Shown here one piece after another: positions 2,240-61,100 of a DNA stretch of 64,000 nt. Both the position numbers and the translations under genes were made by a program. The DNA is from Agrypnia vestita. Its lineage: Eukaryota; Arthropoda; Insecta; Trichoptera; Phryganeidae. The notes under the pieces were generated by a model. That model saw only the letters and a list, made by a program, of their open reading frames with translations. It was not told where the DNA came from and made no database searches. Within the stretch, counting starts at the first letter, position 1, and every line of letters begins with the position of its first letter. Location: positions 124,001 to 188,000 of the forward strand of contig JADDOH010002067.1 in the NCBI GenBank assembly GCA_016648135.1, written 5' to 3'.

Positions 2240-4271
2240 AGGAAATGACTACTTTATGTTCTGGTTATTATTCACTTGTGAAGTCCCGAGGCTATTTTAA
2301 ATTTATGCCTGCTATAGAAACACCAAAGGCTCTGAGTGGAAGCCATCCAGAGCCTTTGGAAGGTCATCTAGAGCACGAGGAAACTCCTTAACGCATAATC
2401 CACAGCTGACATCAAATGGTTACCATTCCAAGTCAGTTTTATAGTTCTATATAATAAGAACTGCACGTTTCTTCGCAAAAATATAACAGATACATTAATT
2501 TAGTCTCCTGCTGTCAAAACACCTCACCAGGGTCTTATCTAATAGATAGGTAACCCGTTATCTAATAGATTTACCTGCATCTGGCTTAATATACTCGTAT
2601 TAGAAAAACTCAAATTCCCACAAAAATAATATCATTAACATATTTATATACCCATTAAAAAACCCATTAGAACCAAATAATTCCCTAGAAGTTCCACGAA
2701 TAGGCAGAATTCTAAGACATACCATAGGGCATAAACTGCGACCGAATTATCAGACTTATTAAATTTTCTTTGCTCTGAATTATCGACCTTAAAAGTCGTA
2801 AGAGCAAGACTTCAGTGACCAGTCACCTCCCCTGAAGATGATTTAATGCAATCTGCTCGAAACGTTGGGAATATAACGGTAATTCTCAGGACTAACATTC
2901 GATGCGAGATAATCGAGATAATTTACTTCCTCCATACGCAGCCCGTAATAATCTCAAATTTAATATAATTACTGAACTTATATCTAAAAACTGGAAAATA
3001 ATGTAAATTTCCACCATTTTGTATTTAACATGATTTTGATTTTGTTTCAAGGTTCGGACCTATGTGATTATGCAGACGTTCATCTCTTATTGTCCAAAAA
3101 AATATTTGTTATGTTTTATACCATGTGTACGAATTAATGAATTGAAAATACGTTTGTTAACTATTCTTATTATCATATAGTACCTACATATTAATATTTT
3201 TTTATTTTTACTCGATTAAATAAATATTTTTATACATAATATACATGATGTATCTGTAGTGTAATATTGTGATTTGTGAACATGAATTGTTTCATTTTAT
3301 AAAGAGTACAGTTCAAAAAATTGTTCGTGTTTTGTGGCATCATTTGACATTTTTGTCAAACTTGATTTTTTTGTACTAATATTTTAATATTAATTTTCTC
3401 TTTAAAACTATTTTAAAAAATTTCTAATTTCTTAGTTTTTTGGGTGATTACAAGAAAAGATAGTTGTATTTTAGTAACACTTCTAATATTCTAGGGAACA
3501 ACAAGTATTGATTTGATTACAAATAAAATTAATGAACAATGTACCAAGCAGTTAATCGAGAATTTTCTTTTCCAGTTGGTTGCATCATTACTGAGGATCG
3601 TGATGCCAAAATAATGGATAATATCATTTTATTACTCCAAATTACATACACACCACAATTTTTGTATCAATTTCAACCTATAGGCAATAAATTTATTCGT
3701 AGAAGAAATAAAAAAAATAGCCAAAACTTCGATGCTAATATCCAAGGGCACGATTCCTGTATTTTATTCGTAAAGTAAAAAATAAAAACCTGTGTATCCA
3801 TATTCTTAGAAAATTAAGATAAAACAATATGTATTACTATAAATAATGAATTAAATACTTGCCATATTTTTCAATATGTTTTATCTGTTGAAAATCCAAT
3901 GAAAAGAACCCTTCATCAAAATAATTTCGTAAATTAAAAAAAAAACATTTTTACACTTAATACACAAAATATCCACCATAAATTAATATAATATATAATT
4001 CAGTATTAGTTGGGCCAATGTACCTACTTTGGCGTTTTGAAATTAAACGCAGAATAAAATTATTTTCTGTAACGCACATAAAAAAGTGTTAACATTTTTA
4101 ATATACAAATTGCGCAGACACTAAAAACAGATAACAATAATTTTAAAATACCGATATGTACTTTAATTTATTTTGTACGAATTTAAAGTTTTTAATTGAA
4201 GCTGAAATAATTTTAATGAAGAAATATATAAATTAGCCTTAAAGTTAACATATTTCCAGATATGATTTTTC
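2240..4271. other. intergenic AT-rich DNA
   Basis: Apart from the hammerhead-like motif at 2828-2870 nothing was recognised. The open frame at 3539-3778 has AT-driven composition, no start context and no family resemblance. Confidence 0.55.
2828..2870 (+). ncRNA. hammerhead-ribozyme-like motif
   Basis: CTGAAGA (2832-2838) is followed by about 20 bases, then GAAACGTT (2859-2866). ACGT is self-complementary and is followed by T, giving a GUU cleavage triplet as expected of UH after helix III. Bases CTCCC before the core can pair with GGGAA after the cleavage point (helix I). Helix II is poor here, so this copy is probably inactive. It is likely a remnant of a Penelope-type terminal repeat. Confidence 0.5.
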
Positions 4272-4458
4272 TCAATCAATGTGTATTTTAGATATCTCAC
4301 AGAGACGAAACTGTATATTTATGGGAAAGTAGGTATTAAGGTTATGCCAGTCGTATGATAGGTCGTAAGCCCTATGTACACCCAAAAGACTTCTTTAGCT
4401 ACTTCCCATAAAAGTACAGTTTCGTCTCTATGTGACATCTATAATACACATTGATTGA
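4272..4458. mobile_element. MITE with ~60-bp inverted arms
   Basis: The first ~60 bases (starting TCAATCAATGTGTATT) return as reverse complement at the right end (ending ACACATTGATTGA). Both arms contain a box reading AGAGACGAAACTGTA and a TTATGGGAA block. The interior is about 65 bases without coding sequence. The arms differ at several places, so the copy is not recent. A phrase near the right arm (AAAAGACTTC) also occurs near 11715 and 24728, which suggests relatives elsewhere in the window. Confidence 0.8.
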
Positions 4459-5520
4459 TTAATGATGTCCCTGTGACAAAATACAGTTCTGTTCTGAAAA
4501 ATTTGGACAATTTGAATGATTTTTCTCCTATATCTTTAATCTTTTTTTTTTATTTACTGTGAAACTTTCTTTAATAATATTTTAAAATTATTGACTTTTC
4601 AAATTACGTGCCGTGTTTTCAAAACTGTTTTTCTGTTTGATCTTAAAACAGTTAAAATTATTATATTACAGAAAAAGATAAACAATTAAAATATTAGGTA
4701 TTTAAATAAGATAATGATTTTTTAAATATATTATTTGAATGATGATTAATAGTTGAATGATGATGATTAATAATGAGTATAGAGTTAGCACCATCTATGA
4801 TTTTGCAACACAAGGTCTGCATTTCAAATTACTAGCGACATTTTGTCTCGCATTCAAATTTACTTACTTTACATATAATTTTTTGAGGTTTAATCTTATG
4901 GTCATAAATTTCATCTTTTTACTGAAATATTAATGTAAAAAAATTAAATTCTTAACTCAAAAATTTTAAAAATTAAATCATTTGAATCCCACTATTAGTA
5001 ATCTTAGTTGGTCCCATTTTCAAAGAATAAGCTCATAGATTAATTTGAAAATATAAGTGCCTTGACGAATATTCATTTAATGTGCACATATATTTTTAAA
5101 TGAGAAAAATACAATAGTTCATAAAAATAAATGGTCTTTACCTAAATAAGGAGCGAGAGCCATCTGTTTACCGAATCAATGTACCTAGTAGGTGTATTAT
5201 ATGTAGGTACCTGCATATTATATTTTAATTTCTTGATCGTTGTGATTTTTCGATATGAATACAAAAAATATTAAATTGTTAGTTAACGATGCGCTTTGTC
5301 GGCGGAGGGTTGGATTCCGATCCTCGCGGCACTGGTGAGGAACTTGAAGAAGGTGTTTTCACCAGAAAATTACCTTGTCACGAGTACCAAACTTTAGACT
5401 ACATTTTTATTTGCGCTACATACTTCTCTATTTCAAGAGGTAGTTATTTACATTATCATTTTTTTATCATTCATTGAGTTTTTTGCAACCTTGAAATGGT
5501 ATAAATCTTACAGTGATTGT
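4459..5520. other. intergenic stretch
   Basis: No gene is supported. A GC-richer patch at 5287-5400 is open in one frame but has no recognisable motif, no plausible splice partner and no homologue in the window; it may be a mobile-element scrap. Confidence 0.5.
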
Positions 5521-5815
5521 CACGCAGATTCTTCATTGTGGTAGGCGGAAAGGATTGAGTAACACATTCTTCTGTCCTGATACATAAATCTTGCCTTACC
5601 CACATTTATAATTCGTCCTATGCAAGGTCGTTGATTTATGTGTTGGTTATTATTTTTTATTTAGGATTCTAAAAAGACAATCTTTCAATGTCTAGTTTAT
5701 TTGTGCTTGCCTAATCTCCCGCAATTGTTCTCTATTTCTGCTGTCATCAACACTCTTCTCATTTATCCATTTAACTCCTGTGTGTCGGTGATGTAACGTA
5801 GGTCTACCTGTCATA
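5521..5815 (-). mobile_element. decayed non-LTR retrotransposon 3' end
   Basis: Read on the - strand this resembles the 3' region of the retrotransposon family at 14505-14660 and 26785-27340: it shares the acacattcttctgtcct block, the cttacccacattta block and the gcaaggtcg block. It is heavily diverged and has no open frame. Confidence 0.45.
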
Positions 5816-5934
5816 CAAAATATGAAATATCTACCTCATTTACGAAAACTAAAATGTCACATTTTTTGTAATCATCGAATAGACATTTTTACACCAAAAT
5901 TACTAAATTAAACTATTAGGAATGTACGTATTTT

Positions 5935-6245
5935 TTAATTAAAAAATATTTATTCATTACTCTCGTATTTTCGGCCAGTGTGCAAGAGAGAGCAGAATAT
6001 TGTACATCGCAGGTAAATCGAGCAAGAAAGAGCACAATACCATACATTTTATGTAGGACAGAGATGGCGGTTGCTTGGGTTTCGGCGAAAGCAAAAACAA
6101 TATAGAAAGAGTACGGTAGAGTCGGGTAACACGTGTTAGACAAAGACGGAGTGCATGCGACTGAAGCGAGCTGGCGACCGCTTCGTTGTATTCAGTTGCT
6201 AATGAAACGTCGGCGGAAGCGCGCGCAAATTCGATTTGCCATAAT
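5935..6245. other. GC-richer unidentified block
   Basis: A patch rich in AGAGAG, AAGACGGAGTGCATGCGAC and GCGCGCG-type sequence stands out from the AT background. The - strand frame at 5916-6143 looks like chance translation of an antisense repeat. A related GC-rich phrase (CGCGCGCGCTTTCATCGC) occurs near 36995. Probably a dispersed repeat or a former promoter-like region; identity unknown. Confidence 0.35.
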
Positions 6246-6999
6246 TTTATAATAATTTACTAAAATAATGCAAATATGTATGTTTACCTTACATAATTAT
6301 ATAAAGGGACCTTTTAAAAGTCTTATCTGTATCGTATTTATGTATATTTTATCACATTTTAAAAACTATGCCGATTTTTAATCAGGTAACGCTGTGTTAC
6401 TCCACCGTCCCCAAAGTTTTTTTTAGCACAGTCTTTTAAGAGTTAATGAGATCAAGCCATAAAAGCTCTTGATCTACATAGTTCGCTATACTAAGATTTT
6501 CTAAGCAAAAAAATGTATAATTCTCTATACAATAACGTTGTAAAGCTATTAGGATGCTACGCTACGCTAGATTGTGCTATTTACACGCCAACATAAATAT
6601 ACTACGATTTCGGGATAATTTTATTTATTGTGAAAGTAAAATTTTTATTGATATTTTGTGAAAAACTGAAGCAAAGTAAGCCGAATTTTGGAAAAAGAGA
6701 CCGTAGGTCATATGGATTGAGGAAAATGATCAGATCATTCATATTGTAATGTTTATTAATATAAAAAATAATTGGTTACATTTCAGATTAATTTTGGGGA
6801 ATTTTTTGATTTTGTGACTGATTAATGTTTAACTAATTATGTAAGGCTGAAATCAATACATTAAAACTCCGTCATATTGCGGACTTTGTTCTTTGCGTAC
6901 GGAATCCTTCGTGAGTGATGACAGTAGTGTCGAAACCTCTAGGACCTTCCACTAAATTCTGGAACATTCGTTCGATAATCCAGTTTTTTGTAAAAATAT

Positions 7000-7082
7000 A
7001 TCAGCCCTGATGATAGACCCTATAATAGGATACGAAACGTCGGCTATAAAGGTCACATATACTCGGCAGACTATCCCAGAAA
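7000..7082 (+). ncRNA. hammerhead-like motif with Penelope-type flank
   Basis: CTGATGA (7007-7013) is followed by a segment that can fold (CCCTAT..ATAGG) and by GAAACGTC (7034-7041). ACGT is self-complementary and followed by C, giving the canonical GUC cleavage triplet. Upstream AGCC can pair with GGCT directly after the cleavage point (helix I). The 3' flank, with CGGCAGACTATCCCAGAAAA in this strand, is related to sequences near 48425 and 51240. The core is complete although helix II is imperfect. Confidence 0.6.

Positions 7083-7532: not shown

Positions 7533-7568
<36 letters not shown>
7533..7568. repeat. (TA)n microsatellite
   Basis: An uninterrupted run of about 16 TA dinucleotides ends in ATAAATAG. 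Length is likely polymorphic. Confidence 0.95.
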
Positions 7569-7573
<5 letters not shown>

Positions 7574-8094: not shown

Positions 8095-8100
8095 TTTATT
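8095..8100 (-). promoter_or_regulatory. candidate polyadenylation signal of the RR-1 gene at 8277-13107
   Basis: AATAAA on the - strand lies about 180 bases past the stop codon at 8277. It is the most convincing signal close to the end of the gene. Confidence 0.4.
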
Positions 8101-23292: not shown

Positions 23293-23475
23293 TAATTAAA
23301 TAAAATCAAAATTACTTTATTTTCACCACTTTAATAGAAAATATTAACATGTTTTGAGAACACTATTATCATCTTCAGGATAACTTATCATATCAAAGTT
23401 AATTAATTAGTCCTGAAGATGGGGACATTGTTCTCGAAACATGCTGTTTTTTTGTTGTTGATTTTATTAAATTAA
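23293..23475. mobile_element. fold-back element with a hammerhead-like motif in each arm
   Basis: The outer arms pair (TTAATTAAATAAAATCAA-type left, TTGATTTTATTAAATT-type right). The right arm carries CTGAAGA (23413-23419), a helix II with G-U pairs (GGGGAC/GTTCTC, loop ATT) and GAAAC (23436-23440). The left arm carries, on the - strand, CTGAAGA (23372-23378), a hairpin and AAAACATGTT. The TTCACCACTTT box on the left resembles TACACCACTT in the elements at 25541 and 27911, so they belong to one superfamily. It lies just past the 3' end of the thioesterase gene. Confidence 0.65.
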
Positions 23476-23712: not shown

Positions 23713-26700
23713 TTAATCCCTAAGTTGATGGTCGAACGGCATAGTCTGAAAATCTTCAAACACATGGTCGGGCACAGAAAAGTTGAGCAATCCTTTGGCT
23801 ATGGGTGAATTGTTTTTAGTATTGGTTAGCAGACACTCCATAACGAACCTTTTCTTGTTCACACTCAACGGCGATAATTCCACGTCTACCAGTGCTCCTT
23901 TCTTTACAGTACTTAGGAATCTGAAATGAGTACGCATATACTACATTACGAAAACATAGATGAAAATGTTGAAATTTCCCCGAAACTCCTTTATATAATA
24001 ATCATATTATCTGTTCTGTCAGTGGTAACAAACCTGGGGCATTCTCATGATACTTATATGTCTACCATCTAAATGAGACTTTTAACCCAATCAATTCCAC
24101 TGTGGTTGTACCTCAAATAAAAACATCAATTAAAACTTATTTATGGTTTTTGTGTTTAATTTGTAGAACTCCATATTTATTTTTAGCGCAATTTAAAATA
24201 AATTAAATTTTAATAAATATTATTATTAAGTTCTACGGGTTAAGTATTTTTATGTGTTACAGCTGTTTCGGCTTGTAAGGCCATTATCAAACAGTGGATA
24301 TACCACGTACAAACGACTTATTTATACAATTTTAAGTTACCCCTTCCCATTTAGAGTAATTAGATATTTGTGGTGAAGCCCTGCAGTAATGTACGTTTTA
24401 AGGGGTAACTTAAAATTGTATAAATAAGTCGTTTGTACGTGGTATATCCACTGTTTGATAATGGCCTTACAAGCCGAAACAGCTGTAACACATAAAAATA
24501 CTTAACCCGTAGAACTTAATAATAATATTTATTAAAATTTAATTTATTTTAAATTGCGCTAAAAATAAAAAAAAAATCAATTAAAACGTTCATTCTATAC
24601 ACGAACTTTTGCAAAAATAATTTAAATATGTATGTTTATAGAACAAAATTACTGGATTTTTACACTACGGGATTACCTATTATTTAAATTAAGCCAGCTA
24701 ATACAGGTTTTCAGCCCATTGTATAAAAGACTTCCATAAAATTTCTCATATAAATTGATTCATCTCTATGAGGCTTCTATAATTTGCCTTAAAAAACTTT
24801 GCATTTAAATATTTTTTATTTTGTATATTTTAATAATTTACGAGATCGTTTTCGCTCTTGGATTTTGAAAAGACACGATGAGTAAATTTAAATTTAAAGA
24901 GTTATGAGAAAAAACTAATATGTAAATTTTATTAATTAACTGTTTATCTTGATATTAATTTGTGCTTAATTTATATCAATGTGTTGTATGTATTAATTCT
25001 TTATGTGAAGATACAATAATATACTAAAATCCCGTTAATTCGAAGCTTGATATTTCAAATTCGCCATAATTCGAAATTCTTAAACCCATAAGTCTCAAAA
25101 TGTTAATTCAAAGTAAATTAATCCTGATAATGTGTAATTCGAAATAATTTTAAGCCCGTTGCGCCGTAAATCAATACATTTAATGTTGCGTATTCGATTT
25201 TTTTTAACAAGTTATAAAAAACTAATAATGCGTGTGGATTTTTGATTACGCGCACCCTTGTGGAATGTCCCTTGTGTATTTCGCGGTACCTTGTGAAATC
25301 CATTTTATTTTATCTGTACATGTTATGTCGCGATTAGGTACTCAAATTGAGAAATCTGAAGATCTATTAAAAAAATGCTTCCTTCAGTCGTCTGCCTAGA
25401 TATGTGCCGATGGTTTAGTTCCTAACGCGTTTAAAAGGGTTTTTCACTTCAAAAAATATTAAATTTCTAGTTTAGTGTGTGTTTGTTTAGTTAAAATGTT
25501 TAATTTTCAAAGGAAGCAAACACTTGGTGGTGATACATTGTAATTAAATAAATAAAAATAACTTTGTTATACACCACTTATATTTATTAAAGAAGTTAGC
25601 ATAGGTAATAGACTAGATAATTTAGATAATTTAGAGGCATTAGAGATAAGAAAAGCCATTAATTGAAATCATAAAATAATCAATAATCAAATAAATTTGT
25701 CTTATAGTCCACTCTTAAATATGTTCCCTCTTAATAATAATGTTCCCTGTATAATCCCACCCCCTACCCCCACTATTGGCACTCCGTCCTTCCACCTTTC
25801 ACACTAGTATATAAGCGCATAACTTTTGTATGTTTAGACAGTTAAGATCCCTGAAGAAGCTACGGTAGTAGCGAAACCTGGTTGGATTTTTAATAAATAT
25901 AAGTGGTGTATAACAAAGTTATTTTTATTTATTTAATTAAAATGTTTAATTTGTTTATTAAGAAGTTATTATAGACCAATACTTTTATTTCACATATTTG
26001 TGGATGATTGTATTTCTTATAGCTGTGTGCTGGTCTCAGTCAAAATAAAAGACGGAATCTAAAGTTAAAATCGAGTGGAAGAGTAATGTCGAAAATAACA
26101 TTTAATTGTTTTAGCGTAAGGAATATTGATTTTTTAAAATGATTACTAGAAATGTGTAAAAATACAAATGTTTTTCACAAAATTAAAGGCTTTTTATTCA
26201 TGATTTTTATGATTTTTAGTGAATTTCACAATCGCATCGCGATTTTTTTTTTAATGTTGAATTTAAAATTAACGAGGTTCTACCGCATTTGTCTTTATAG
26301 TGTGATACGTGTCACCGGTATAAAACTTGTAGGTAAAAATAAAATTTTGGAAAATTTTGTGAATAAAAAATATAGTTTTTTAGGCATTATAAATAAGAAA
26401 ATTGTTTATCAGGGGTTATTTTCATAACGGCAAATGGCAAACTATATAGACATTCCATCCAGATCAGGAGACACTAACGATATATCAATGCTGTTGGTCC
26501 AACACCATGTTCCCTCTGGATGTTGCACGATTCCGTATGTAGCAAACACGTCCATGACGGAGGCGATGAAGCCTCCGTGAAGAAAGCCACCACAATTACA
26601 CATGTCTTCGGTGACTTGGAAGGATCCAGTCATGCGCCCATCGGCCGCTGATTTTATTTTGACCTATTTTATTAAAGGAAAATTAATAAGTAGTTAACAA

Positions 26701-29700
26701 ACCAAATAACTAACATACCTAGCATCATGTCGTTTTTCCATGAGACAAAAGGGACAATGTACCATACTATTCAATTCTAATATACTAACTAACTAACCAT
26801 CACGCCGTTTCCCCGCAGGAGTAGGAGAGAAAAGACACCACACTCTTCTATCTTAGCACACCACTTTTGTTTCTGACACATTCATTCATCTTCTTATACA
26901 AATTCTACGGTTGTTGCGGCTTTTAACAGGGCCATCCTCAAATACTTGTAGTATCTGATCATGCCAGGTCTTTCGCGGACGCCCTCTATTCCTGTTGCCT
27001 TCAACACTCGCCTCATATATTTTCTTAACCATCCTTACTTCGTTCATACATTCCACATGACCAAACCAATCAGCACTCCTTTCTTTATTCTATCTACCAC
27101 ACTACAGCCAGCATTGTATTAATGTCTAATTTGTTTATTACTCACTCTATCGACCAAAGATTTTCCACATAAGCATCTTAGTGACCGCATTTCTACCGCA
27201 TTCAGTCTACTTTCACTCCTCTTTTGCCAATTCCAGGCTTCACTTCCATACATCAGGGTTGGCACTAGAACGCCATTATGTATCGCTAGTCTTGCTTTCT
27301 TTGACAGATTCTTATGGGTCATAATTATTCTAATATACAACTCACATATTTATTTATGCATGCTTGTTGATCATTGAGGTTTTCAATAAGATCCAATAAC
27401 TTCCAATACACAGATTACTTGGCCAAGCCTTTCTTGAAGTCATCCATTTCTAGTTCCATCAACAGTCCAATTTTCTAGTGATGGGTTTGATATAACAGCC
27501 AACTGCCCATATGACGACTGCTTGACAAACCAACTTCCAGAAAGCCATGTGCCCGACAGACCATCTTTCCAAAAAAAGAATTGTACCTACCTATTTGCAT
27601 TTTTTTGTGAAAAAATGCATTAATTCTTCATCTGTTTGAAAAACAAAACAAAAAATAAATACATTATTGATCAATTTAAAAATGTGCTTGAATAATATAT
27701 TTTACATATATATCGTGGTTGACCTAAGGATACAAGTTTTAAAATATAACGTGGGTTACCTAAGGATATAAGTTGACTGTTGAATTTCTTTTAAATTAAA
27801 TTTAAATTAAACACAACAGAATATTCAAAATAATTTCTAGGTACGTTACGAAATGAATTATTTTTATCTTCTTCTTCAGCAAACAGCAAAATTATTTTGT
27901 GGTGACATTATAATTATAATTTATAGAAATTAACTTTATTTACACCACCTTTTTTATTGAAAAAAATTCAACATGTTTTAAAGCCAATCCTATGAAGATA
28001 GATCCTGATGAATTAGCCATTGGCTTTGAAATATGTTTAATTTTTTTCGATAAAAAGGTGGTGTAAACAAAGTGAGTTTCTATAAATTATAATTATTTTT
28101 ATGTTCTTTAGCAATGCACTAGGAAAAAATAACTTTGAAATTATGTTTAAAATTGATCTGTTCTGATGTTTTCAATAGTTGAAGATCTTACGCCCGTTTC
28201 ATAAACGTATGCAAATGAATATCCTATAATTAATAGTAATTTAATATTTTTTTATTCTAGATTTTGGTTTGTAGGATAATTGGCTGTCGGGCTGTTAGAT
28301 TGTCGGCAGTTGACTATGGATCAATCTACTGTAAGGCAATCAGCTATCGGGCAGATTATATTTTGTTTACAAAATTCAATACGAAAATATGACACGAAAA
28401 ATAAAAAAAAACTACCAGACTTAAAAATGAAATGTGACAGAAAATAAAGATTTTTTTTTTAAATACTACAGTGAACTATGAAAATTTTTGATAGCTTTAA
28501 TATTTTATTTTATTATTATTTGAGGATCACTAAGTACTGTAGTCTTAACATACACTGTAAACTGCTCATACAGTTTTGCAAGATGCCTGTAATAATCTAG
28601 ATGTTTATAGATTATAATAAATAAACAATAAAATAAAAGTTTGTCATGCAAACTCTTCAGTTATTGGTCATCCTCCAATAATTGATTTACCTCTCCGTGC
28701 CAGGCCTTTCAGGGATATCCTCTGTTCCAGCTGCCTTCAACACTCGACACATATGTTTGCTTTACCATATTTTTTTCGTTCATTCATTCCGTATAGCCAA
28801 ACCATCTAAGCCATCCTTTCTTTATTCTAGCGACTACTATATATACTATATGTATAATAATTTTATTAATTTTTCCGAAACGTGTTGGTATAATTAAACA
28901 AATAATATAAGTAGATACATACAAATAATAAAATAAATATTTTTTAATATAAAAATCACTTCTAATTCTTTCACTCTCCACTCTACAGTGCGAAGATTTT
29001 TCACACATGTACTTAAGCGACCACATTTTCACCGCTCTCAATCTATTCTGAGCTATAATTCCATTTGATTAAAAATGGGTCATTCTTCTTTCAAATGGGA
29101 CAGTATAATTTCATTATAAAAACAGGATTGGAATACTGCTTATTTAGGTATGTATTACACTAGCATATTCATCAAGTAAAGGCCGTCTGGTTATAAAAAA
29201 AAAACTTGCAAGAAAAACTATTAATTGACAGTTTACTATTTACCTATCTACTTCATTTTTCCACATTATCGCCATTCAGTTTTAAGCACTTTTCGTAATG
29301 CTGCATTATTTCCTTCACATGGGAATCGAACCAGTTGTGTTCTTGTCGTTTTCCTGATCCCTTTGCAGTTTTCTGTACACTGGTTCAACGATTTCGTCGG
29401 TCTGAATACTACCTGCCACTACGCTCTTTAACATGCACATTTAAGCGCACATTTTTATTTGGGAAATTTTTGACCACCTTCCATATACTTCCGTTCTTGT
29501 ATCTAGCGACTACTTCCTCTTCTTGCATTCGAAATGGTGGATTGGTGGACAACGGTTTGAAAACTACGAGGAACTCAAGATTGCCCTTGTCAACTGGTTC
29601 ATTCCCAGGCGGCCACAGAGGAGTTAAAGAAACTGGTGCAGTGCTACAAAAAGTATTTAGAACTGAATGGCAGTATGTGGAAAAGTGAGCTAGATATAAA

Positions 29701-32139: not shown

Positions 32140-32735
32140 TTTTTCACTAATTACTTTGGCAGAAATCTATTGTATGTCTAAGTAGTGTGAACTCACATCT
32201 TACATCTTGTTTATAAATAAATTCAATTAGATTTTTTGACTCAATCTTTAAATTGATTTAATTAAATTATTTACCATCAACGTTATTTTTGCATCCATAA
32301 AAATAATATGAGAACATTTTTAACGTATTACTGCTTAATGGAAGTACCCAAAATAATGCCAAAATGGAGTTAATATTTCTCTTGCTTATATTTAATGGAT
32401 TTGGAAATCAAGTTACGAACGTATGCGTGTGTGCGCGCTTTAGGGCGATCTTTTTCTAAAACGACACATACCTACCTACTAATTTATTTAATAAACTATA
32501 TTTTAAAACTGAAGAAAATTGCTCCATGTTGTATACTTTTCTAGAATATAACTGTATGGAAGTATGATACAATTTTTTTTTCAATAATATTTCTGATTAT
32601 CGGCCGTATTCTGAACTAAGCAATATTACTATTTCTGTATCTTGACAATTATGTATAACATTGTAATGCCGCCAATTTTGACGTTTTAAGTTTGATACGT
32701 TAGTATTAATTTCTTTGAGATTATCATTCTTCAAC
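32140..32735. other. intergenic AT-rich stretch
   Basis: No feature recognised between the SINE and the hammerhead-like motif. Confidence 0.5.
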
Positions 32736-32739
32736 CGAT

Positions 32740-32778
32740 ATGACGTTTCGCCTGAATCACAACAGGCATCTTCAGTGT
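32740..32778 (-). ncRNA. hammerhead-ribozyme-like motif
   Basis: On the - strand: CTGAAGA (32769-32775), a hairpin with a perfect 5-bp stem GCCTG/CAGGC and an 8-base loop, GAAA (32746-32749), then ACGT followed by C, giving the canonical GUC triplet. Helix I is not evident, so activity is doubtful, but core, helix II and cleavage triplet are intact. Confidence 0.65.
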
Positions 32779-32984
32779 GCCTTGTTAATAAATTTCCGTC
32801 ACGAGGGGTAGTGCGAGCGAAATATATCATTTTAAAATTGATTCATCAGGTTACATTTATTTAAAAGCGGATATCTTGTTAAATGACACAAACTGAATTA
32901 TATAATTAATTAATAAATTACCAAACCTACGATGTTTTAAAAAATAAGAAAATTGCGTCACTTTGTGGGTCTGTTTATACATAT

Positions 32985-43572: not shown

Positions 43573-43717
43573 ATAATAAATTAAATATTGCAAATATGTA
43601 AATATTTTTTTGTAAATTTATTTTCTCAAGATTTCCAAATTACTTATTCAACTCCCTTTTTTATGTTTTGTTTATGATTATATCCATACTTCCAATTTAA
43701 AAAGAGTTCTTTGTATT

Positions 43718-43755
43718 CTGTTGAAGGGACCATTGCCCCCAAAACATGTTGAGTA
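43718..43755 (+). ncRNA. degenerate hammerhead-like motif
   Basis: CTGTTGAAGGGACCATTGCC, then CCCAAAACATGTT: a GGG/CCC stem followed by AAAACATGT and T, parallel to the 47340 copy but with CTGANGA altered. Probable old copy. Confidence 0.35.
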
Positions 43756-43911
43756 TTCAATAGTGATTTTAAACAAAACGTTTTCTCTTTATTATTGAAA
43801 ATATATTTGTATGATTCTAAAAGATTATAAACATTGTTCTGCATATTGAAATTCCTAATAGAACAGTATTTTAACGCAATTATATGTTTATTACCAACAA
43901 GTTAAATAAAA

Positions 43912-44372: not shown

Positions 44373-44477
44373 AACATATTTCATCACACTTATATTATTT
44401 ATTCATATAGTCGGATACTTAAAATATTTATTGACATAAGATAATAATTTTATGTTTAGGATTAGATTTTTATCACC

Positions 44478-44517
44478 GTTAAGAAGGCAGTTATGGATTC
44501 CGAAACTGGTTGGTTAA
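44478..44517 (+). ncRNA. doubtful hammerhead-like relic
   Basis: GTTAAGAAGGCAG, spacer, CCGAAACTGGTTGG: the GAAAC-NGGTT end parallels the complete copy at 25873-25883, but CTGANGA and helix II are not preserved. Confidence 0.25.
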
Positions 44518-45283
44518 ATAAACACACTCAAGTGGTTGTATACAAAGTCAATGATACATTTGATTTAATCACGTTTAATCGGTAGGGAAAGAAGGTCCTG
44601 GAAGGGTATGTGTTGACCAACTCCAATCATAATGAAGCTATGAAAAGTGGCGTGCCACAAATGGATGATCTTTGGAAGAGTTTTTAACCCAACAATGAAA
44701 GGACACAAATTTTTATCTCTTATCTGACTCATCTGTAATTGATTTCGGATTGAGTGAATTATTTTAAGTTCACGGTTGGAACATTTAGACATTGAAAGCT
44801 GTTGATATCTTGTCACTCGCTAATGTTATGTTACTGTCCATTGTTGTCATATGTTGGAACTCGCGGGGACCTCTGGAGGTTATTTGCCTTCTAATTATTT
44901 GTTAAATGACAAATTTATTTTAAAGGCGAAAAATCTCATTATAAATAAATAGACTTGGTGTTCCAAAAAGTTAAATTTTTAGAACACGAGATTTGAGAAA
45001 TTTTTAGGTTTTTTGGTATTAAAAGTTGAAAAAAATATCACACAGTAAAACTACGTACATCCTCCTGATAAGATGAAGTCTATGCCAATGAGATTAGACA
45101 TTCGGGAAGACTAGAAATAGGGGAGTTTGTTTGGGTCAAAAGAATCCAGATTAAAAAAGTGTAACATAAACGAACAAGTCTCATTACCAAACGGGAATTA
45201 AGGATGTGTATATTGGAACCTTCGAGAGGATAATTTGAAATATAAAATGTTGGATTTTTAAATTGAATAATATAATTGCAATA

Positions 45284-45343: not shown

Positions 45344-48300
45344 TTATTTTGGTATATGGGCGCCTAAGGGTTGGAACCCATTCTCATCAGCGATGTAGTC
45401 CACCCTGTAGAGTATCCCATCGGGCCCTACGTATTCGTAAAAGCCTTTCGACCTCAGACCGGTTTCGGTGTCACTGATCTTTTCATCTTTACCAAATTCC
45501 TCGGCGAGGATTTTGTTTTCTGTCTCGTAGAGGTAATGGTATCCATCAGGGTAGACGTCGTCTTCCAAACGAATGATTCTCGCTCCAGAGCTGTCAATTT
45601 GCGGTGTGGATTTCTGTACTACCACGGTGGGTTTGCGGCTCTGTGGTGCCGGGCTGGTGGGTTTCCTTGGGACGATCTGCTGGTCGCGTGCTGCTGGTTC
45701 CTGGCCTCCTACGTATTGTCCGCCCGGTTGGCCTCTGTCGCCACTGTTGATGAAATAATTAAATTATAAATCTACTAGAGGCAAACACAATAATCCCTGC
45801 CATTTGTTAATATTTACTAAATTAAACATGAAAATTATCGAAAAAATAAACATTTATAATATTTGCACGCAATAAATAATTTAACCCGCCCGTGTGCGAT
45901 GCATGTCGTCTGTGTGGAGTATGTGGGAGTAGAGTGGGAAGTAGATCAATAAAAAATTGGCTACATAACATAACTTTGTAATGAAAAACCAGGTATTGTT
46001 GAAACATTATGAGTTTAGATGATATGTAGTGGAGAAATATTACAGCGTAATTTGTATCATGTATTGCAATTATAAAATACATTTTGAACAATTTTATACT
46101 TTATCGTGATAAATATTTAATATTTTCCATAAGATTATAAAATATATTATTAAAATATTCGCTCTAACATAATTGGTTAATTCTTGATTTATTCAAAATT
46201 ACTTTTATAAATTCTGCAAGGGAAGTTGTTCGTCATTAATTCAATACAATTATAATAGTAATTGATCCATTTCATTAATTCTGAAAGCATTTAAAACGCA
46301 TTCAGCCATTTCACAAGCTTAATGATAAACATATTTATATTTTTGGACCTACGCCATTCAATATTAATGCGTAAAACGATTGCAAGTCAGACTGCGGGGT
46401 CTTAATATATTTTGTTACAACATCCAACCTTTTAAATCGAGGTAAAAGATTAATAAAATATTTTGGCACCACGAAAGCAAACTGAATTGAGTGAAAATCA
46501 GATCATTTAGGCGTGTGTCCTTTTATCATATAATAATCCTTTTATGATATAATAACCCAAAGAATTAACAAATTCGGAAAGAGTACAGAGCTGTTCTTAG
46601 CATAGTGAAAAGAATTAAAATTGGGTTTGAGCATGTTGAGCAATCGAATAAGTACGAAGGATATATAACGCAAATTTTGATGACGCCAGAAAAAGGGGGC
46701 GGCCGCAGAAGACATGACATGACCAGGTTAACCAGATATTGTAAGACGGTCCTGTTAGGAGCCTTAACAATCGTTGAGCTTGCAAAGATGTACGAATGTG
46801 GATCAGGTGAGAGTTGTCTATCAGGACAGAAGAATATGGCCCCCTAACTGCGTGATGATAAATAAGTTAGTTAAGAAAATTTATTTTTTCTTTTCTCTAC
46901 AGCGCCAGCGGTCAGTAAATGAATATTAAACTTGATTTCAAAGTACGTTCATGAACACCTAGAAATTAAAATGCTGTCTCCTTCGAACTAGGTCATTATT
47001 CTTGGACAGGTAGCCAGCATGGCTAAAAATAATGCTAATAAGCATCAAACGTAAATAGTAACATTATAGGGGCTCATTAAAAAAATTACGTTATTAATAT
47101 TTTTAATATTAAAGGCATTATCTTTATGATCAGACATGTTAACAAAATATTATTGATGTAAGTATATGACAAATAAAAGTTTTATAGTGGTTATATACCT
47201 ACTAATAAAAATGTTTCAAAGTAACGTTTTAAAAGAGAATTAATCTTTTTCTTCAAATGTAGCAAATTTATTTTGTGGTAACATAATTATAATTAATATA
47301 AATTAACTTTGTTTAAACCACTTATTTATTGAAAAAAATCAACATGTTTCAAAGCCAATGGCTTCTTCATCAGGAAAACAAAAATAATATTTAAAAATCG
47401 AAGTATAGATCAAAATATTAAAAAGTTATATATGGAAAATAATAATATAAAGTACCTAATTAAATAATAATATAAATACAAAGTTAATTTATATGGAAAA
47501 TAATAATATAAAGTACCTAATTAAATAATAATATAAGTACAAAGTTAATTTATATTAATTAGAGAATTAATCATTTTTCATTATTGAGTGCAGAATTAGG
47601 GTTGGTATTATTATAATTTTAAATCGATTATATTATCAAAAATTCAGTTGATTAACTGAAAAGGTTCAATGACATGTAATTTCCTTAAAAAACTGACATC
47701 TTTTTTGCTCGTAAAGAGAGCTTAAAATGGTCGAAACATTGAATTATTTTGCGGTTTGATTTTATTGCAACCGTTTCGGGGATGAGTATCGGGTAAATTA
47801 TATTCTTGAAAAGTTTCCTCAGGAGTTGCAACTAGGCCAATATTTACTAAGATTACTTTTGATCATCATTAAACATAAACATAAAAACAATATTAATTAG
47901 AACTTGGAAGCCATTTCTATGCTTTGAAGGATATTTCACCGATTTTATATAATGATATTACATAAAACTATAAATTTTTCATTAAAATTTTACAAAAATC
48001 TTTCAAAAAATTATCATTAATTTAAGATCAATTTATTTTCAAAATTATAATACAGATATGGAGAGAGAAAATTTTTGTATGTACATTTATCTTTTTCACT
48101 AGTTTTGAGTTCTGACAGATTTTAGTCGATCTTAAAAATAAACCTTTATCCTACAGATAAAATAATATTTTTATTAATTTCACCACCAAACAGATGTATA
48201 AAAGTGAATTAGGTTAGAAAAACATGCCAGGATATAAGAGTGAGTAACTTGTTAGCCTACCCTTGCCAAGAAACAATATGGTAGTATGTTAATGGTACAA

Positions 48301-50849: not shown

Positions 50850-53200
50850 AATGTGTCGAGACGTTTGTTAACCTACACAACAGTGCTTCCAAAACTATAT
50901 TTTTAATTTTGGGGTCTTCAAAATGCTAAAACAGTGTATTTTAGTAGGTTTTATTTTATCAATTAATTAATCGTTAACAGTAAAATGAAGATAAAAGAGG
51001 CTTATGATAAACTGAACAACAGTATAAAATTTATATAGAATTTTCATTGATTTTATACTTAATAAATTAATACATTATACATGTACTACATTTAATAGAT
51101 TTCATTTAGTAACAATTCTTTTAAAAAGGCTATGTATGCGTTAATACATATATCTACCACAAATGGATTTTGTAAGATTTTACAATCAAATTATATTAAA
51201 AATGTCCTTAGGTTTTCACGGCCATTCAGAATCTTCTGTGTATAGTTTTCTGGGATATCCTGCCGTGTGCAGAATATTCCAGAAGACTATTCACAGAACA
51301 CATTATATTGTAATATGTCACAAAGCTGTACATAAATATATAGTATTTATATACCTAGGTATGTGGTTGAAAATGACCTCATGTTACGAACAAAATTAAT
51401 GTTTTCAGCATATAATTTTCAAATACACACTCGTACAAATCCTGATATTGCTTACAATGGACTAGTTGTGTAATGAGATGGTTTTTATGAACTTTTTGAA
51501 TTATTTGATTAGACATATTTTCAGTATAAGTTATCAACTGGACGGTAACGTAAATTGAATAGTGAAAAAAACATTGAATATTATTAGGAGTTTAAAAACT
51601 ATAGGTAAGATATAGGGTTCATCTTATGAAACTAACTGCATATCAAAATATTTTGCATAGTGTTTTGAGATATTTTTCTGCATGTCTCTGAACTCTCTGA
51701 CTATTCACCGGATATCAGTAAATCAGCCCTGTTGCAATATAGTTTAAAACATCAGAATGAGAGGTCCGATACATATAGATTTTGAACGGACTTAAAAACC
51801 CTTTTAAGACCGTTCAATATATTTTTATATGTGTACTAATTAATGTTTGCTCGTATAGTAAAGATAAGAACATACTTAAATGTAAAAATATCTGCTGATC
51901 TCAAAACAGTAAAATGCAATCGCATTAGTTGAAACACTAAACTGCATAATTTAATGCATCCGTTGCTGGTCAACCTTTAGAGAAGAGAATTAGCGCACTC
52001 ATCATTTGAAATACTATCATTTGTATGCTTCGCTGGCTTACGAGTAACATGAGCTGTCCAGGTCATTTATTAATAAATAATTTATTCCGTATTACAAGTT
52101 TCAAATAACACAAAAGGTATAATCCACGTTTTATTTTATTATATATATATAGATACATACTGCACACAGTTTTGCAAGCGTAAAACAGATATAGAACATT
52201 TGAAATAAGAAACTTTCTTAAATGAACGTGCAAAAAATGCTTTTTGACCTTGCACTTCTGGTAATCCTTATGACCATAAATTTGTAATAATACAATGAAA
52301 TGTGGATGATATAGTGGCCTCACATATTTGCGTATTTCATCAGTAATATCTCAGTATTTTGTTAATCCCACCAGTGTATTTTTAATTAATGGTTTATTCA
52401 TACGGTAAAGGTAATCCACTTGTAGCCTATCATTAACGGAATTTTTCGGAAATTCGCCTCATATGGGTACTGTATTTTGGTTAACCCAAAAGCACCATAC
52501 AATTTTTACCATAGCTAACGAGATTTGTGTTTGAAATTCAAAAAATATGTATTTTTTAGTCTAAACGTAAACAATTGCATATTATTGCGCATATTACAAC
52601 TATTTTAGATAAAATATTTTTGTATTAACAACTTTTGGATATTTTTTTAATAATCTCCTGGATCTGAAGAAAAGTAGTTAAATTTAACATACATACGTAT
52701 ACATTTTGGGTTTTGTAAAAAAGGTGAACGTGCTGCAGAGAACTCAAAGTGAACTGATGCTTGCTAATAAAAAAATATAGTTCTGAAGCAAGCAGGAATG
52801 TGGTTTTTTTTGGCCAGAAAGGAGTTTTTAGAAATTTATATTTTAATTATTCGATCATTTACGAGTTTATGTCATGGATACTATATAAAGTAACAAGCAT
52901 GTATGCTTTAGATGTCTGGGGTGACAACGATGCATATGGCTTCTGGATACATATGGTCATCATTGCAGCTTCTAACCATTATACGTGAAGACTGTATCTT
53001 TCCGAGTTGGTGTGCATGGTAAAGTCGAATTCAGTTGATTTTGAAGCGACCTACAGCTACGAAGGAATTTAACAGTGCAATAATGCGTGGTAGTATAATG
53101 CTAACACCAACTAATTTATTTTATTACGAAAAGCGACAAATGTACAAAAATTATTTTCAGTAGAAGAGACCCGTCGTTTGTACTGCCGGGTTAAAAAAAA
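50850..53200. other. intergenic stretch
   Basis: No gene recognised. It contains the inverted repeat at 51228-51300 and an unexplained GC-richer patch at 51960-52065. Other open frames are AT-driven. Confidence 0.45.
51228..51300. repeat. imperfect inverted repeat linked to the Penelope-type flank
   Basis: CTTCTGTGTATAGTTTTCTG then GGATATCC is matched in reverse by GGAATATT-CCAGAAGACTATTCACAG on the right, around a short GCCGTGTGC centre. Shares wording with 48418-48475 and with the flank of the hammerhead-like motif at 7000. Confidence 0.65.
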
Positions 53201-55870: not shown

Positions 55871-55874
55871 ACTA

Positions 55875-58219
55875 ACTATCCTGACCAAAGCGCGAAGCCG
55901 TTTGCTATGTGACAGTAATATTATAATTGTGTAAAATTTGTCAAATAGTACGCAGCGCACTGTGGGGCGAATGAACGATGCAACTATTATGCATATCGAT
56001 TAGGGTTTCTGACACGGGTCGACACAGGAATTCATTCTCGGGAATATATTAGGTTTTCGATGCATTGAGTACTATCCTGACCAAAGCGCGAAGCCGTTTG
56101 CTATGTGACAGTAATATTATAATTGTGTAAAATTTGTCAAATAGTACGCAGCGCACTGTGGGGCTAATGAACGATGCAACTATTATGCATATCGATTAGG
56201 GTTTCTGACACGGGTCGACACAGGAATTCATTCTCGGGAATATATTAGGTTTTCGATGCATTGAATACTATCCTGACCAAAGCGCGAAGCCGTTTGCTAT
56301 GTGACAGTAATATTATAATTGTGTAAAATTTGTCAAATAGTACGCAGCGCACTGTGGGGCGAATGAACGATGCAACTATTATGCATATCGATTAGGGTTT
56401 CTGACACGGGTCGACACAGGAATTCATTCTCGGGAATATATTAGGTTTTCGATGCATTGAGTACTATCCTGACCAAAGCGCGAAGCCGTTTGCTATGTGA
56501 CAGTAATATTATAATTGTGTAAAATTTGTCAAATAGTACGCAGCGCACTGTGGGGCTAATGAACGATGCAACTATTATGCATATCGATTAGGGTTTCTGA
56601 CACGGGTCGACACAGGAATTCATTCTCGGGAATATATTAGGTTTTCGATGCATTGAGTACTATCCTGACCAAAGCGCGAAGCCGTTTGCTATGTGACAGT
56701 AATATTATAATTGTGTAAAATTTGTCAAATAGTAACGCCACGCAGCTGTGGGCGAATGAACGATTCCCTTTATTCATAGCGTATTAGGGTTTCTGACACG
56801 GGTCACACATGAATTCATTCTCGGAATATATTACGGTTTTCGATGGCGATTGACAACTATCCTGACCAAAGCGCTAACCGTTTGCTATGTGACAGTAATA
56901 TTATAATTGTGTAAAATTTGTCAAATAGTACGCAGCGCACTGTGGGGCGAATGAACGATGCACCTATTATGCATATCGATTAGGGTTTCTGACACGGGTC
57001 GACACAGGAATTCATTCTCGGGAATATATTAGGTTTTCGATGCATTGAATACTATCCTGACCAAAGCGCGAAGCCGTTTGCTATGTGACAGTAATATTAT
57101 AATTGTGTAAAATTTGTCAAATAGTACGCAGCGCACTGTGGGGCGAATGAACGATGCACCTATTATGCATATCGATTAGGGTTTCTGACACGGGTCGACA
57201 CAGGAATTCATTCTCGGGAATATATTAGGTTTTAGATGCATTGAATACTATCCTGACCAAAGCGCGAAGCCGTTTGCTATGTGACAGTAATATTATAATT
57301 GTGTAAAATTGTCACATATGACGCAGCGCACTGTGGGGGCTAATGACGTGCACCATTATGTATATCGATTAGGGTTTTCTGACCGGGTCGCCACAGGAAT
57401 TCTTCCTCGGAATATATTGAGGTTTGCGATGCATTAATACTATCCATGAACCAAAGCGCAACCGTTTGCTATTTGGAATAATTTTAATTGGTAAAATTTG
57501 TCAAAGCGTAACGCACGCACTGTTGGGCGAATGAACGAGCATTACTATTATGCATATCGATTAGGGTTTCTGACACGGGTCGACACAGGAATTCATTCTC
57601 GGGAATATATTAGGTTTTCGATGCATTGAGTACTATCCTGACCAAAGCGCGAAGCCGTTTGCTATGTGACAGTAATATTATAATTGTGTAAAATTTGTCA
57701 AATAGTACGCAGCGCACTGTGGGGCGAATGAACGATGCAACTATTATGCATATCGATTAGGGTTTCTGACACGGGTCGACACAGGAATTCATTCTCGGGA
57801 ATATATTAGGTTTTAGATGCATTGAATACTATCCTGACCAAAGCGCGAAGCCGTTTGCTATGTGACAGTAATATTATAATTGTGTAAAATTTGTCAAATA
57901 GTACGCAGCGCACTGTGGGGCGAATGAACGATGCACCTATTATGCATATCGATTAGGGTTTCTGACACGGGTCGACACAGGAATTCATTCTCGGGAATAT
58001 ATTAGGTTTTCGATGCATTGAATACTATCCTGACCAAAGCGCGAAGCCGTTTGCTATGTGACAGTAATATTATAATTGTGTAAAATTTGTCAAATAGTAC
58101 GCAGCGCACTGTGGGGCGAATGAACGATGCACCTATTATGCATATCGATTAGGGTTTCTGACACGGGTCGACACAGGAATTCATTCTCGGGAATATATTA
58201 GGTTTTCGATGCATTGAGT
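55875..58219. repeat. satellite array, 196-bp unit x 12
   Basis: Units begin ACTATCCTGACCAAAGCGCG at 55875, 56071, 56267, 56463, 56659, 56856, 57051, 57247, 57439, 57632, 57828 and 58024. Most neighbours are nearly identical. Diagnostic variants are GGGGCGAAT/GGGGCTAAT, GATGCAACT/GATGCACCT, TTTTCGATG/TTTTAGATG and TTGAGT/TTGAAT. Parts of units 5, 8 and 9 are full of small indels. The unit holds EcoRI (GAATTC) and ClaI (ATCGAT) sites and no long ORF. Unit length is in the range of nucleosome-sized satellites. The array ends abruptly at TTGAGTCCCGGGACTCG. Confidence 0.97.
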
Positions 58220-58224
58220 CCCGG

Positions 58225-58620
58225 GACTCGAAGTTTGAAAAATATTTACTAGCAAATATTTTTAATATTAAAAAATAAATAAAGACTTATGGATCTACGG
58301 AGGAGTGAACAATTAATTGACCTGTTGACCGACCTCTGTTGAAACAGAAAGAGTTTTTTCAATTGCTGGAATATATGTAGAAAATCAAGAAAGCTATCAG
58401 ATGTAAATTTGAATATTTTGGTTTATTAAAAATGTGTGTTTTTAATTTCAATTTTTTATATTTGTTAATATGAGATAGGTATAATAGATTGATTGTAAAT
58501 ATGTACACTGAACATTGTAAATTACAATATATTTATTAAAGGAAACATACAATATATTTATTATTGTGAAGTTGCAATTTCAGAACAAAGTTCTGTGAAT
58601 TATTAAACAATTTTTATAAA
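58225..58620. other. AT-rich spacer between satellite and tRNA-like sequence
   Basis: No gene or repeat recognised. Confidence 0.5.
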
Positions 58621-58625
58621 TATTT

Positions 58626-58701
58626 AAATGCCACCGGGACTCGAACCCCGACCTCAGCTTCTATCCGGAATTGGCGCGTTATCCAATTTCGCCATGGCAC
58701 T
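58626..58701 (-). pseudogene. tRNA-Arg(CCG)-like pseudogene
   Basis: On the - strand the acceptor stem AGTGCCA pairs with TGGCATT (one G-U). A box (TGGCGAAATTGG) and B box (GGTTCGAGTCCC) are intact, and the wording GGATAACGCG and TTCCGGAT matches arginine tRNAs with anticodon CCG. The anticodon stem (GCCAA against TAGAA) does not pair and the T stem has a mismatch, so it is unlikely to work as a tRNA. Could be the head of a SINE. Confidence 0.65.
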
Positions 58702-58746
58702 CTTGTAAGTTAACAAAAAATTTTCAAATTTATATGTAGTCTCTTT

Positions 58747-60245: not shown

Positions 60246-60305
60246 TTGATTAACATTTTTATTCCATTTTTCAAGCAATCCACTTATGTAATGCAAGTCA
60301 CGAAT

Positions 60306-60381
60306 AGCTTCACGTATCTACCGTTAAAGAACGCCAGAAATATAGAATGTAAGGTCTGTGGTTCGAATCCCGGTGGCATTT
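60306..60381 (+). pseudogene. tRNA-like 3' half, opposed to the 58626 copy
   Basis: GTGGTTCGAATCCCGGTGGC then ATTTACA gives a good B box and the same 3' acceptor end (TGGCATT) as the sequence at 58626-58701, in the opposite orientation. The 5' half is not recognisable as a tRNA. Confidence 0.55.
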
Positions 60382-60670
60382 ACATATTTTTTTGTTAATT
60401 TGATTTTTTCCGTATGTCTTTTCTAATTGATTAATAAAAATTGTTTTGCAATATATTTCATTCAAATAATTTTTTTAATTTTCTTTTTTTATTTTAAGAA
60501 TTTATTGTACCTGTATTTTTATTTAGAAATACTATTTTTGGTCAATATATGTTTTTTTATAATAATAATAATTTAATTGAAATAAATTTAACAATATTTA
60601 TAAGAAACAAACACAAAATATTTAATTATCAATATTTTTAATATTTAAAGCATTGACATTGTGGTTCGAC

Positions 60671-61100
60671 AATAAAACAGATTGTTAGTTAAATTAGTAT
60701 AATCTACTACCAGATTTTAGGTCTACCGGTTTTGAGACGTGCCCGTCTCTTCGTCAGGACCAACACAAGACTAGACTAGTATAATCAATTTTCTATATAG
60801 CTCAATTTAACTTTCACAAAAGATTTGATAACACCCACTTTAGACCCCGCCCCTCTCACTTTCTCTCCCTCGTAGATTCCTGATCGTTCTGTAGGCAAGT
60901 TAGTGCATGCCTGTCCTTAGCACGATTAACACCATGTGATAAATATTGGTGAAATGTTAACAATACTATGGTTGTGGTGTATAGTGTTGTGAACATAGTA
61001 GTCTAGTGTTGGTCCTGAGGAAGAGACGGATACGTCTCAAAACCGGTAGATGTAAAATCTGGTAGTGGTTTTTACTAATTTAACTAACACTCTGTTATAA
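60671..61100. mobile_element. 430-bp element, ~100-bp TIRs, hammerhead-like motif in each arm
   Basis: The left arm (ACAGATTGTTAGTTAAATTA onward) and right arm (to TTTAACTAACACTCTGTT) are reverse complements over about 100 bases with several differences. Left arm, - strand: CTGACGA (60751-60757), stem GAGACG/CGTCTC with loop GGCA, CAAAACCGGT. Right arm, + strand: CTGAGGA (61015-61021), the same stem with loop GATA, CAAAACCGGTA. ACCGGT is self-complementary and followed by A (GUA). GAAA is replaced by CAAA in both, so cleavage is doubtful. The interior is non-coding. Confidence 0.75.

Follow-up and report, generated by a model that had tools for sequence, protein, structure and literature searches.

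Hammerhead-like motifs dispersed in the Agrypnia vestita genome and their probable origin in pseudo-LTRs of Penelope-like elements

Minimal type I hammerhead ribozymes reportedly occur in the pseudo-long terminal repeats (pLTRs) of Penelope-like elements (PLEs), as described by Cervera and de la Pena in 2014 and by Lunse and colleagues in 2017, the title of the latter work referring to cleavage as dimers. Here we analyse a 64,000-nt stretch of the genome of the trichopteran Agrypnia vestita (contig JADDOH010002067.1, positions 124,001 to 188,000; hereafter the window), in which a dispersed family of hammerhead-like motifs had been noticed. We consider it very probable (roughly 0.93) that these motifs represent minimal type-I-like hammerheads of the pLTRs of several PLE families, predicted to self-cleave as RNA.

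In many metazoan genomes minimal type I hammerheads are scattered in thousands of copies, of which a part has been mapped to PLE pLTRs, and their role is described as a mystery (PMC7761336). Dispersed minimal hammerheads in PLEs are already in print there, and the family in the window adds members to them. The likeness lies in dispersal, in thousands of copies per genome and in a reduced helix III; the differences are an extra base (A, less often T) after core position A9, nearly universal here, and one lineage with the core change A13U. Neither an extra base in the hammerheads of PLEs nor a PLE lineage with a naturally mutated core was found described in the literature searched, which did not cover Cervera 2014 and Lunse 2017. 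An extra A after A9 is said to have been reported in 2001 by de la Pena and Flores for the hammerhead of chrysanthemum chlorotic mottle viroid. Published accounts of the plus-strand hammerhead of this viroid likewise describe a catalytic core with one additional nucleotide, an A (PMC3705267, PMC6155905), whereas its carrier is a viroid unrelated to PLEs.

Among PLEs themselves, the Poseidon element PAc of Anolis carolinensis has a pLTR hammerhead and two start sites of reverse transcriptase (RT) that bound a tail, and it inserts at AT-rich targets, both strands of which are cut and extended (PMC11167929). The open reading frame (ORF) of PAc begins at stem II, whereas in families A and E of the present genome the ATG lies in the tail, about 60-65 nt after H17. 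The Penelope families of Adineta vaga share an inverted pLTR, an optional 31-bp tail on one inverted pLTR and target site duplications of 8, 9 and 10 bp (PMC3846280), compared with direct repeats of 11-15 bp and a far higher copy number here; that text makes no mention of hammerheads.

Motif anatomy and abundance

The original prediction had placed a CTGANGA core at 11 positions of the window, and the core is present at all 11. It starts at 2832, 7007, 23413, 25851, 28005 and 61015 on the plus strand and at 23378, 32775, 36265, 47373 and 60757 on the minus strand; the minus-strand positions first given (23372, 32769, 36259, 47367 and 60751) equal the core start minus 6, and the strand of 23372 had been left unmarked. 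CTGANGA followed by GAAAC within 8-27 nt occurs seven times in the window, against a mean of 0.29 (maximum 3) in 200 dinucleotide shuffles. When [GA]AAAC and a helix II of 5 bp or longer were demanded, six occurrences stood against 0.005 (maximum 1), and adding a palindromic helix III and H17 gave five (25851, 61015, 60757, 47373 and 32775) against none, the list of helix III words for this strictest count having been drawn from the data themselves. A descriptor without the extra core base matched only the site at 47373 and, poorly, that at 36265.

A covariance model (R1), trained on 31 genome copies, none of them from the window, and run over the window with filters off, found eight sites with expectation values (E) below 1e-4, seven of them on the list of 11: 47332-47382, 23337-23387 and 60715-60766 on the minus strand, and 23404-23454, 25842-25892, 27996-28046, 43709-43759 and 61006-61057 on the plus strand. 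Weak matches lie at 44469-44520 (plus, E 0.029) and 2823-2875 (plus, E 0.041); 43709 and 44469 are decayed copies absent from the earlier list. In the window R1 gave no match at 7007 and 32769, which belong to a class with ACGT as helix III that lay outside its training set; helix II is decayed in the former and helix I lost in the latter. A sequence-only model, run with default filters and therefore not strictly comparable with R1, found five window sites at E<1e-4 and missed 25842.

Motif anatomy was read from 74 instances taken from 40 motif-chosen loci and the window, with a collecting pattern in which the base following the core had to be A or T. An uninterrupted helix II of 4 bp or longer is present in 53 of the 74 and in all 53 starts one base after CTGANGA, a base overlooked in the layout originally proposed; offsets 0-3 yielded no helix II of this kind in the remaining 21. 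Genome-wide, the pattern CTGANGANGGG..CCCGAAAC with an extra base of any kind had 1,110 matches, compared with 32 for the form without it, the two sets overlapping where the extra base is G. Twenty of these 32 measure 28 nt and 12 measure 27 nt, the length expected without an extra base; among the five whose letters were seen, the three of 28 nt allow a reading in which G is the extra base, and the two of 27 nt lack it. Helix III is ACATGT, ACGTGT, ACCTGGT, ACCGGT, ACTTGT or ACGT in 67 of the 74 instances, and H17 is A, T or C. The helix III words ACGT, ACATGT and ACCTGGT of the original prediction hold; its fourth, ACAGCTGT, adjoins none of the 11 cores, occurring in the window only at 24259 and 24479. 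The GAAA proposed alongside them stands in part, since AAAA is found at 23378, 60757 and 61015, and GAAAT with helix III ATATGT at 28005. The observation made in the window is therefore partly confirmed.

The family as a whole has the core CUGANGA and GAAA, the A15.1-U16.1 pair and H17; only some of the window copies are intact in this respect. It had been claimed that the N of CTGANGA varies while its neighbours are held, and this is borne out by the 93 R1 matches, in which N7 is C in 25, T in 32, A in 21 and G in 13, and the other positions from C3 to A9 are kept in 86-92 (gaps counted as misses). Covariation was assessed in the 31 non-window copies, nine of the 40 selected ones (family B and the ACGT class, which MAFFT had misaligned) having been left out beforehand. 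Hammerhead pairing was found in 79.5% of cells, compared with 64.5 +/- 1.7 after shuffling (reached in 0 of 500 shuffles), and the covariation score was 0.487, compared with at most 0.237 when partners were slid by 1-3 columns. Changes on both sides of a pair occur at four of five helix I pairs and, as had been proposed for helix II with pairing kept, at five of six helix II pairs; the suggested check for helix II covariation among genome copies thus finds it, in helix I as well. Two of the five covariation measures lay within the range of the shuffles (9 both-side changes, reached in 160 of 500; 27 further pair types, reached in 67 of 500), and RNAalifold, unaided, returned helix II only, with five pairs. 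Among 67 instances, an uninterrupted helix I of 4 bp or longer formed in 48% of own and 10% of cross-family pairings, the seven without a palindromic helix III having been dropped.

The motif is present in many thousands of copies in the Agrypnia vestita genome. A degenerate pattern matched 12,446 places in 1.32 Gb, against three for the same pattern read backwards; the ACCGGT family, which lies outside that pattern, had 7,126 matches against none for its control, and family E, searched within three mismatches, had 5,423 against none, overlapping the set of 12,446.

Carrier elements and insertion architecture

The derivation of the copies from PLE terminal repeats, put forward in the original prediction, gains support from the same hammerhead flanking an ORF with RT and GIY-YIG domains and from a window segment (47240-47477) with 96% identity over 240 nt to the pLTR of such an element, L049. 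GIY-YIG matches numbered 63, from 150 scored of 4,793 candidates, and four of the loci, chosen for their long open frames, were retrieved. All four carry GIY-YIG, and two carry RVT_1 (below the curated cut-off in L050); in each, a hammerhead follows the stop of the ORF and an inverted hammerhead stands at the opposite end. L049 contains RVT_1 (3.8e-11) and GIY-YIG (7.3e-6) in one 559-aa frame at 1495-3171, so that the Penelope RT sought beside the motif is found flanked by motifs of the 47373 type. Besides what the four loci have in common, L049 has the 5' pLTR copy, so that hammerheads at 285 (minus), 520 (plus) and 3261 (plus) surround its ORF. Protein relatives with RVT_1 and GIY-YIG include entries from named moths, butterflies, beetles, a psyllid and a locust. 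The element is not intact: frames 591-908 and 909-1391 are in the same frame with a stop between them, and 1495-3174 is in another frame. A single protein with RT and a C-terminal GIY-YIG domain, as in PLEs, is thus found for the carrier elsewhere in the genome and not inside the window.

PLE protein similarity (E up to 0.01) lies within 400 nt upstream on the same strand in 22 of 83 matches in motif-chosen loci, compared with none downstream on the same strand, one downstream on the opposite strand and eight upstream on the opposite strand, the last explicable by the partner arm of a pair seeing the same remnant. These figures, from the full 93 matches, are preferred to an earlier subset count of 21/72, which used 81 of the 93 and omitted some weak full-length matches. 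In several short copies the endonuclease C-terminus directly precedes the hammerhead.

Neighbouring copies, taken within 3 kb of each other, mostly stand head to head. The divergent, tandem and convergent orders were 8/0/2 in the first 100 listed matches of the degenerate pattern, 12/1/2 in the first 100 listed of the ACCGGT family, 15/2/0 in the first 100 listed of family E and 17/0/0 in all 79 matches of the A13U pattern, or 52, 3 and 4 among 59 neighbouring pairs. The spacing within the two tandem pairs of family E, about 2.69 kb, is similar to the 2.74 kb between the direct pLTRs of L049. The distance between the hammerheads of a pair ranges from overlap up to 1.6 kb.

In the family alignments, read by eye, 15 of 15 pairs carry a tail on exactly one arm (L009, L010, L011, L023, L025, L028, L030, L034, L038, L040, L045 with a short tail, L047, L049, L050 and L051), and in several families the tail starts with ATGTCACCACAAAG or similar. 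Direct repeats of at least 11 bp between the flanks were found in 10 of 23 pairs, compared with 8% of crossed pairs, and nine of these ten, 11-15 bp long, lie 39-55 nt from the end of the R1 match on the tail-less side and 83-110 nt on the tailed side. In the window, the copies near 47.3k and 27.9k have repeats of 11 and 12 bp at the expected places, and those near 25.5k, 23.3k and 60.7k have no direct repeat of 11-12 bp. The PLE hallmarks of pLTRs, an inverted pLTR and a one-arm tail are accordingly present, with a target site duplication in 9 of 23 pairs; head-to-head arms, one-arm tail and partial target duplication agree with the insertion structure reported for PLEs (PMC3846280, PMC11167929) and with the PLE origin first proposed, and the two arm ends fit the pair of RT start sites and the extension on both strands known from PAc (PMC11167929). 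The scattered motifs thereby form a readable record of PLE insertion, with both RT ends, the tail and the target duplications visible in one genome.

Proposed origin and alternative explanations

An element with an RT-GIY-YIG ORF between two pLTRs, an anatomy seen in this genome, would be transcribed, and each pLTR RNA would contain a single hammerhead with a fully or nearly palindromic helix III of 4-7 nt. By analogy with the enzymology of PAc (PMC11167929), the element protein would nick AT-rich DNA and reverse transcription would start inside the RNA on both target strands. The two RT start sites would lie about 50-65 and 90-120 nt past H17, where the arm end and the tail end are seen here. 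Two cDNAs, one tailed and one tail-less, would presumably be joined mid-way into the anatomy that is observed, a short head-to-head copy each end of which bears an outward-facing hammerhead and arm, some copies also having target duplications of 11-15 bp. Cleavage by the hammerhead may resolve multimeric RNA into single units, possibly in a dimer or with the element protein assisting; in PAc, cleavage is protein-assisted and unneeded for insertion in vitro (PMC11167929).

Several observations weigh against this origin. Helix II does not directly follow A9, as it does in the consensus hammerhead, the extra A or T standing between them nearly everywhere. Rfam, the check by covariance model that had been suggested, gives no hammerhead match in the window, whether gathering scores are applied or E is allowed to reach 10, and none in nine motif-carrying loci at E up to 10; this we attribute to the start of helix II one base after CTGANGA in 53 of 53 well-formed instances, and Rfam models thus miss an abundant hammerhead form. 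The core columns of R1 are biased because its training loci were picked by exact core pattern; among 41 R1 matches outside that pattern, every core base is kept in at least 34 (gaps counted as misses). The site at 36259, listed originally as a member, has neither a 4-bp helix II at offsets 0-3 nor a palindromic helix III, looks like chance and is rejected. No same-strand upstream protein remnant is detectable in 61 of the 83 matches in motif-chosen loci, and the sole remnant inside the window is weak (E 0.5). When all 93 R1 matches in fetched loci are counted, weak ones and mixed families included, the divergent, tandem and convergent orders become 25/11/11, with head-to-head the commonest arrangement and not the sole one, and the tandem share rises to 11/47 from the 3/59 of the genome lists; this full count is preferred to one of 25/7/4 from a hand-picked set that had three pairs from the window. 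Thirteen of the 23 pairs have no direct repeat of 11 bp, and the repeat of L009 lies inside the arms and was rejected as a target site duplication.

The hammerhead fold might instead be kept chiefly as a structural RNA signal, for protein binding or for placing the RT start, with self-cleavage weak or dispensable. We regard this as unlikely, while seeing more in its favour than in that of the other alternatives. The A13U lineage speaks for it. L050 and L051 have GTAA in place of GAAA in all four arms, and the pattern GTTTCCG[A/T]AACATGTAGAGGTGT has 79 exact matches in the genome, with GTAAC (A13U) in 79/79, against 51/4,431 for the same change in families E and F; this A13U motif stands 251-270 nt downstream of the endonuclease domain, on the same strand, at 13 of the 63 GIY-YIG matches. 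Mutation of A13 reportedly inhibits cleavage 10-100-fold without complete loss (PMC4075628, citing earlier work). A PLE lineage with endonuclease-bearing copies has thus spread despite a core change expected to impair cleavage. The open-frame copies L050 (425 aa) and L051 (319 aa) look 5'-truncated, no full-length A13U member is among the copies seen, the count possibly includes assembly duplicates, and help in trans is possible. The extra core base found nearly everywhere and the insertion of ribozyme mutants in vitro (PMC11167929) point the same way as A13U, as does the scarcity of tandem pairs, since with only 3 of 59 genome-list pairs in tandem and a head-to-head layout many short copies would be unable to dimerise in cis on one transcript. 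In the other families, however, C3-A9 and G12-A15.1 are held while N7 is free, which a mere hairpin would not need, and the A13 effect itself is an incomplete loss. As a natural mutant series, the A13U lineage makes the need for cleavage a testable question.

Far less probable is that the short copies form an independent family, retrozyme-like or SINE-like (short interspersed element), which makes small circular RNAs and is only mobilised by PLEs. The many matches lacking an upstream protein remnant (61/83) would fit it, and the type I hammerheads of metazoan retrozymes do sit in tandemly repeated units about 170-400 nt long (PMC7229834). A spacing of 170-400 nt is, however, found in none of the 11 neighbour pairs in tandem order, and head-to-head is the commonest arrangement; the endonuclease C-terminus directly before the hammerhead in several short copies is what 5'-truncated PLEs would leave, and in L049 the first coding frame of the ORF (591-908) is opened by the ATG of the tail, at 609. 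A DNA transposon of the miniature inverted-repeat type, with hammerhead-like sequence in its terminal inverted repeats, would account for inverted arms at both ends and for the partial target duplications but is scarcely credible, given that the arms differ by a tail on one only, that the distance between paired hammerheads varies, and that RT and/or GIY-YIG, and not transposase, was present in the four coding loci examined.

Individual copies and neighbouring features of the window

The window copies are mostly decayed fossils, and nothing seen suggests a present role for them. The hammerhead at 25842-25892 is the only one well formed in all its parts; that at 47332-47382 combines an intact core with a short helix I, and the rest have lesions of core or helices. 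A family-A PLE insertion lies at 47246..47561 (minus), a pLTR with tail and a short inverted arm fragment at the 5' end, bounded by the 11-bp target duplication GAGAATTAATC at 47235-47245 and 47562-47572. Its hammerhead (47332..47382, minus) has core and GAAA intact, a helix II of 6 bp and a helix I of just 2 bp, and scores 64.7 bits with R1 (E 1.4e-15). At 27868..28090 (plus) lies a short head-to-head PLE copy with its left arm tailed, inverted arms at 27910-27965 and 28041-28096, 83-88% identity to the L049 pLTR and the 12-bp direct repeat AATTATTTTTAT at 27856 and 28091; in its hammerhead (27996..28046, plus, E 7.4e-6), a helix II base and helix III (GAAATATGT) are decayed.

A family-B copy with approximate outer limits, 25507..25945 (plus), is probably a 5'-truncated PLE, judging by its order of tailed inverted arm, possible endonuclease remnant, hammerhead and outer arm. 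The arms (25535-25591 and 25889-25945) are 98% alike, with an end direct repeat of just 7 bp. The possible endonuclease C-terminus at 25622-25726 (tblastn, 54% over 35 aa, E 0.5, internal stop) would be weak alone and is in the expected place; the hammerhead, at 25842..25892 (plus, E 8.8e-7), is the best formed of the window, with intact core, 7 bp in helix I, 5 bp in helix II and ACCTGGT as helix III. The head-to-head pair near 23.3k consists of a left hammerhead with G12 changed to A (23337..23387, minus, E 2.4e-6) and a right one with intact core and lost helix I (23404..23454, plus, E 2.1e-10), followed by the tail ATGTCATCACAAAG.

An ACCGGT-family head-to-head pair spans 60673..61099 (unstranded), with arms 89% complementary and hammerheads at 60715-60766 (minus, E 4e-5) and 61006-61057 (plus, E 1e-5). 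G12 is changed to A in both arms, and taking this as proof of a mutant template was rejected: since the position is a CpG site and A stands there in 4 of the first 100 listed copies of the family, the shared change is only suggestive. Two further copies are decayed, one at 43709..43759 (plus, E 8.6e-6) with A6 to T and G12 to A, the other at 44469..44520 (plus, E 0.029), strongly decayed, family-B-like by eye and followed by arm-like AAGTGGTTGTATACAAAGTC.

The copies at 2832, 7007 and 32769, compared by BLAST and by eye alone, belong to the ACGT class, which is possibly a separate PLE-related non-autonomous family. A weak, decayed one at 2823..2875 (plus, E 0.041) is 75% identical to an L017 copy along 170 nt; another decayed one, at 6999..7060 (plus), has a relative of about 81% in L034; the third, at 32725..32818 (minus), has a perfect helix II (GCCTG/CAGGC) with helix I lost and is 88-89% identical to copies in L026 and L045, the latter two of the three being those without an R1 match. 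Hammerhead elements of the class at L026:3717-4037, L045:3284-3581 and window 32725-32818 have an ATG at A9-T-G, after which no long ORF was found in the copies inspected. The L026 element has 60-nt inverted ends, and those of L017, L026 and L045 continue into TA-rich repeats.

Apart from the motifs, the window contains a 170-nt perfect inverted repeat (24176-24345 and 24400-24569, 54-nt spacer, 100% complementary), perhaps a young fold-back element, which holds the only ACAGCTGT sites. The ORFs at 33690-34163 and 45344-45763 (both minus) we take to resemble RR-type insect cuticle proteins, which may place the window within a cluster of cuticle genes. A tRNA-like match at 58626-58701 (minus; 31.4 bits, gathering 29), seen in a permissive Rfam search only and absent at gathering settings and in ARAGORN, is possibly a tRNA-derived SINE, and a hairpin at 51235-51299 that resembles mir-2778 below the gathering score and matches both strands is probably a repeat. 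Tandem arrays lie at 55875-58217 (196-bp unit, 12 copies, 93% matches) and at 645-1221 (127-bp unit, about 4.5 copies), units similar to the latter occurring in several of the fetched loci.

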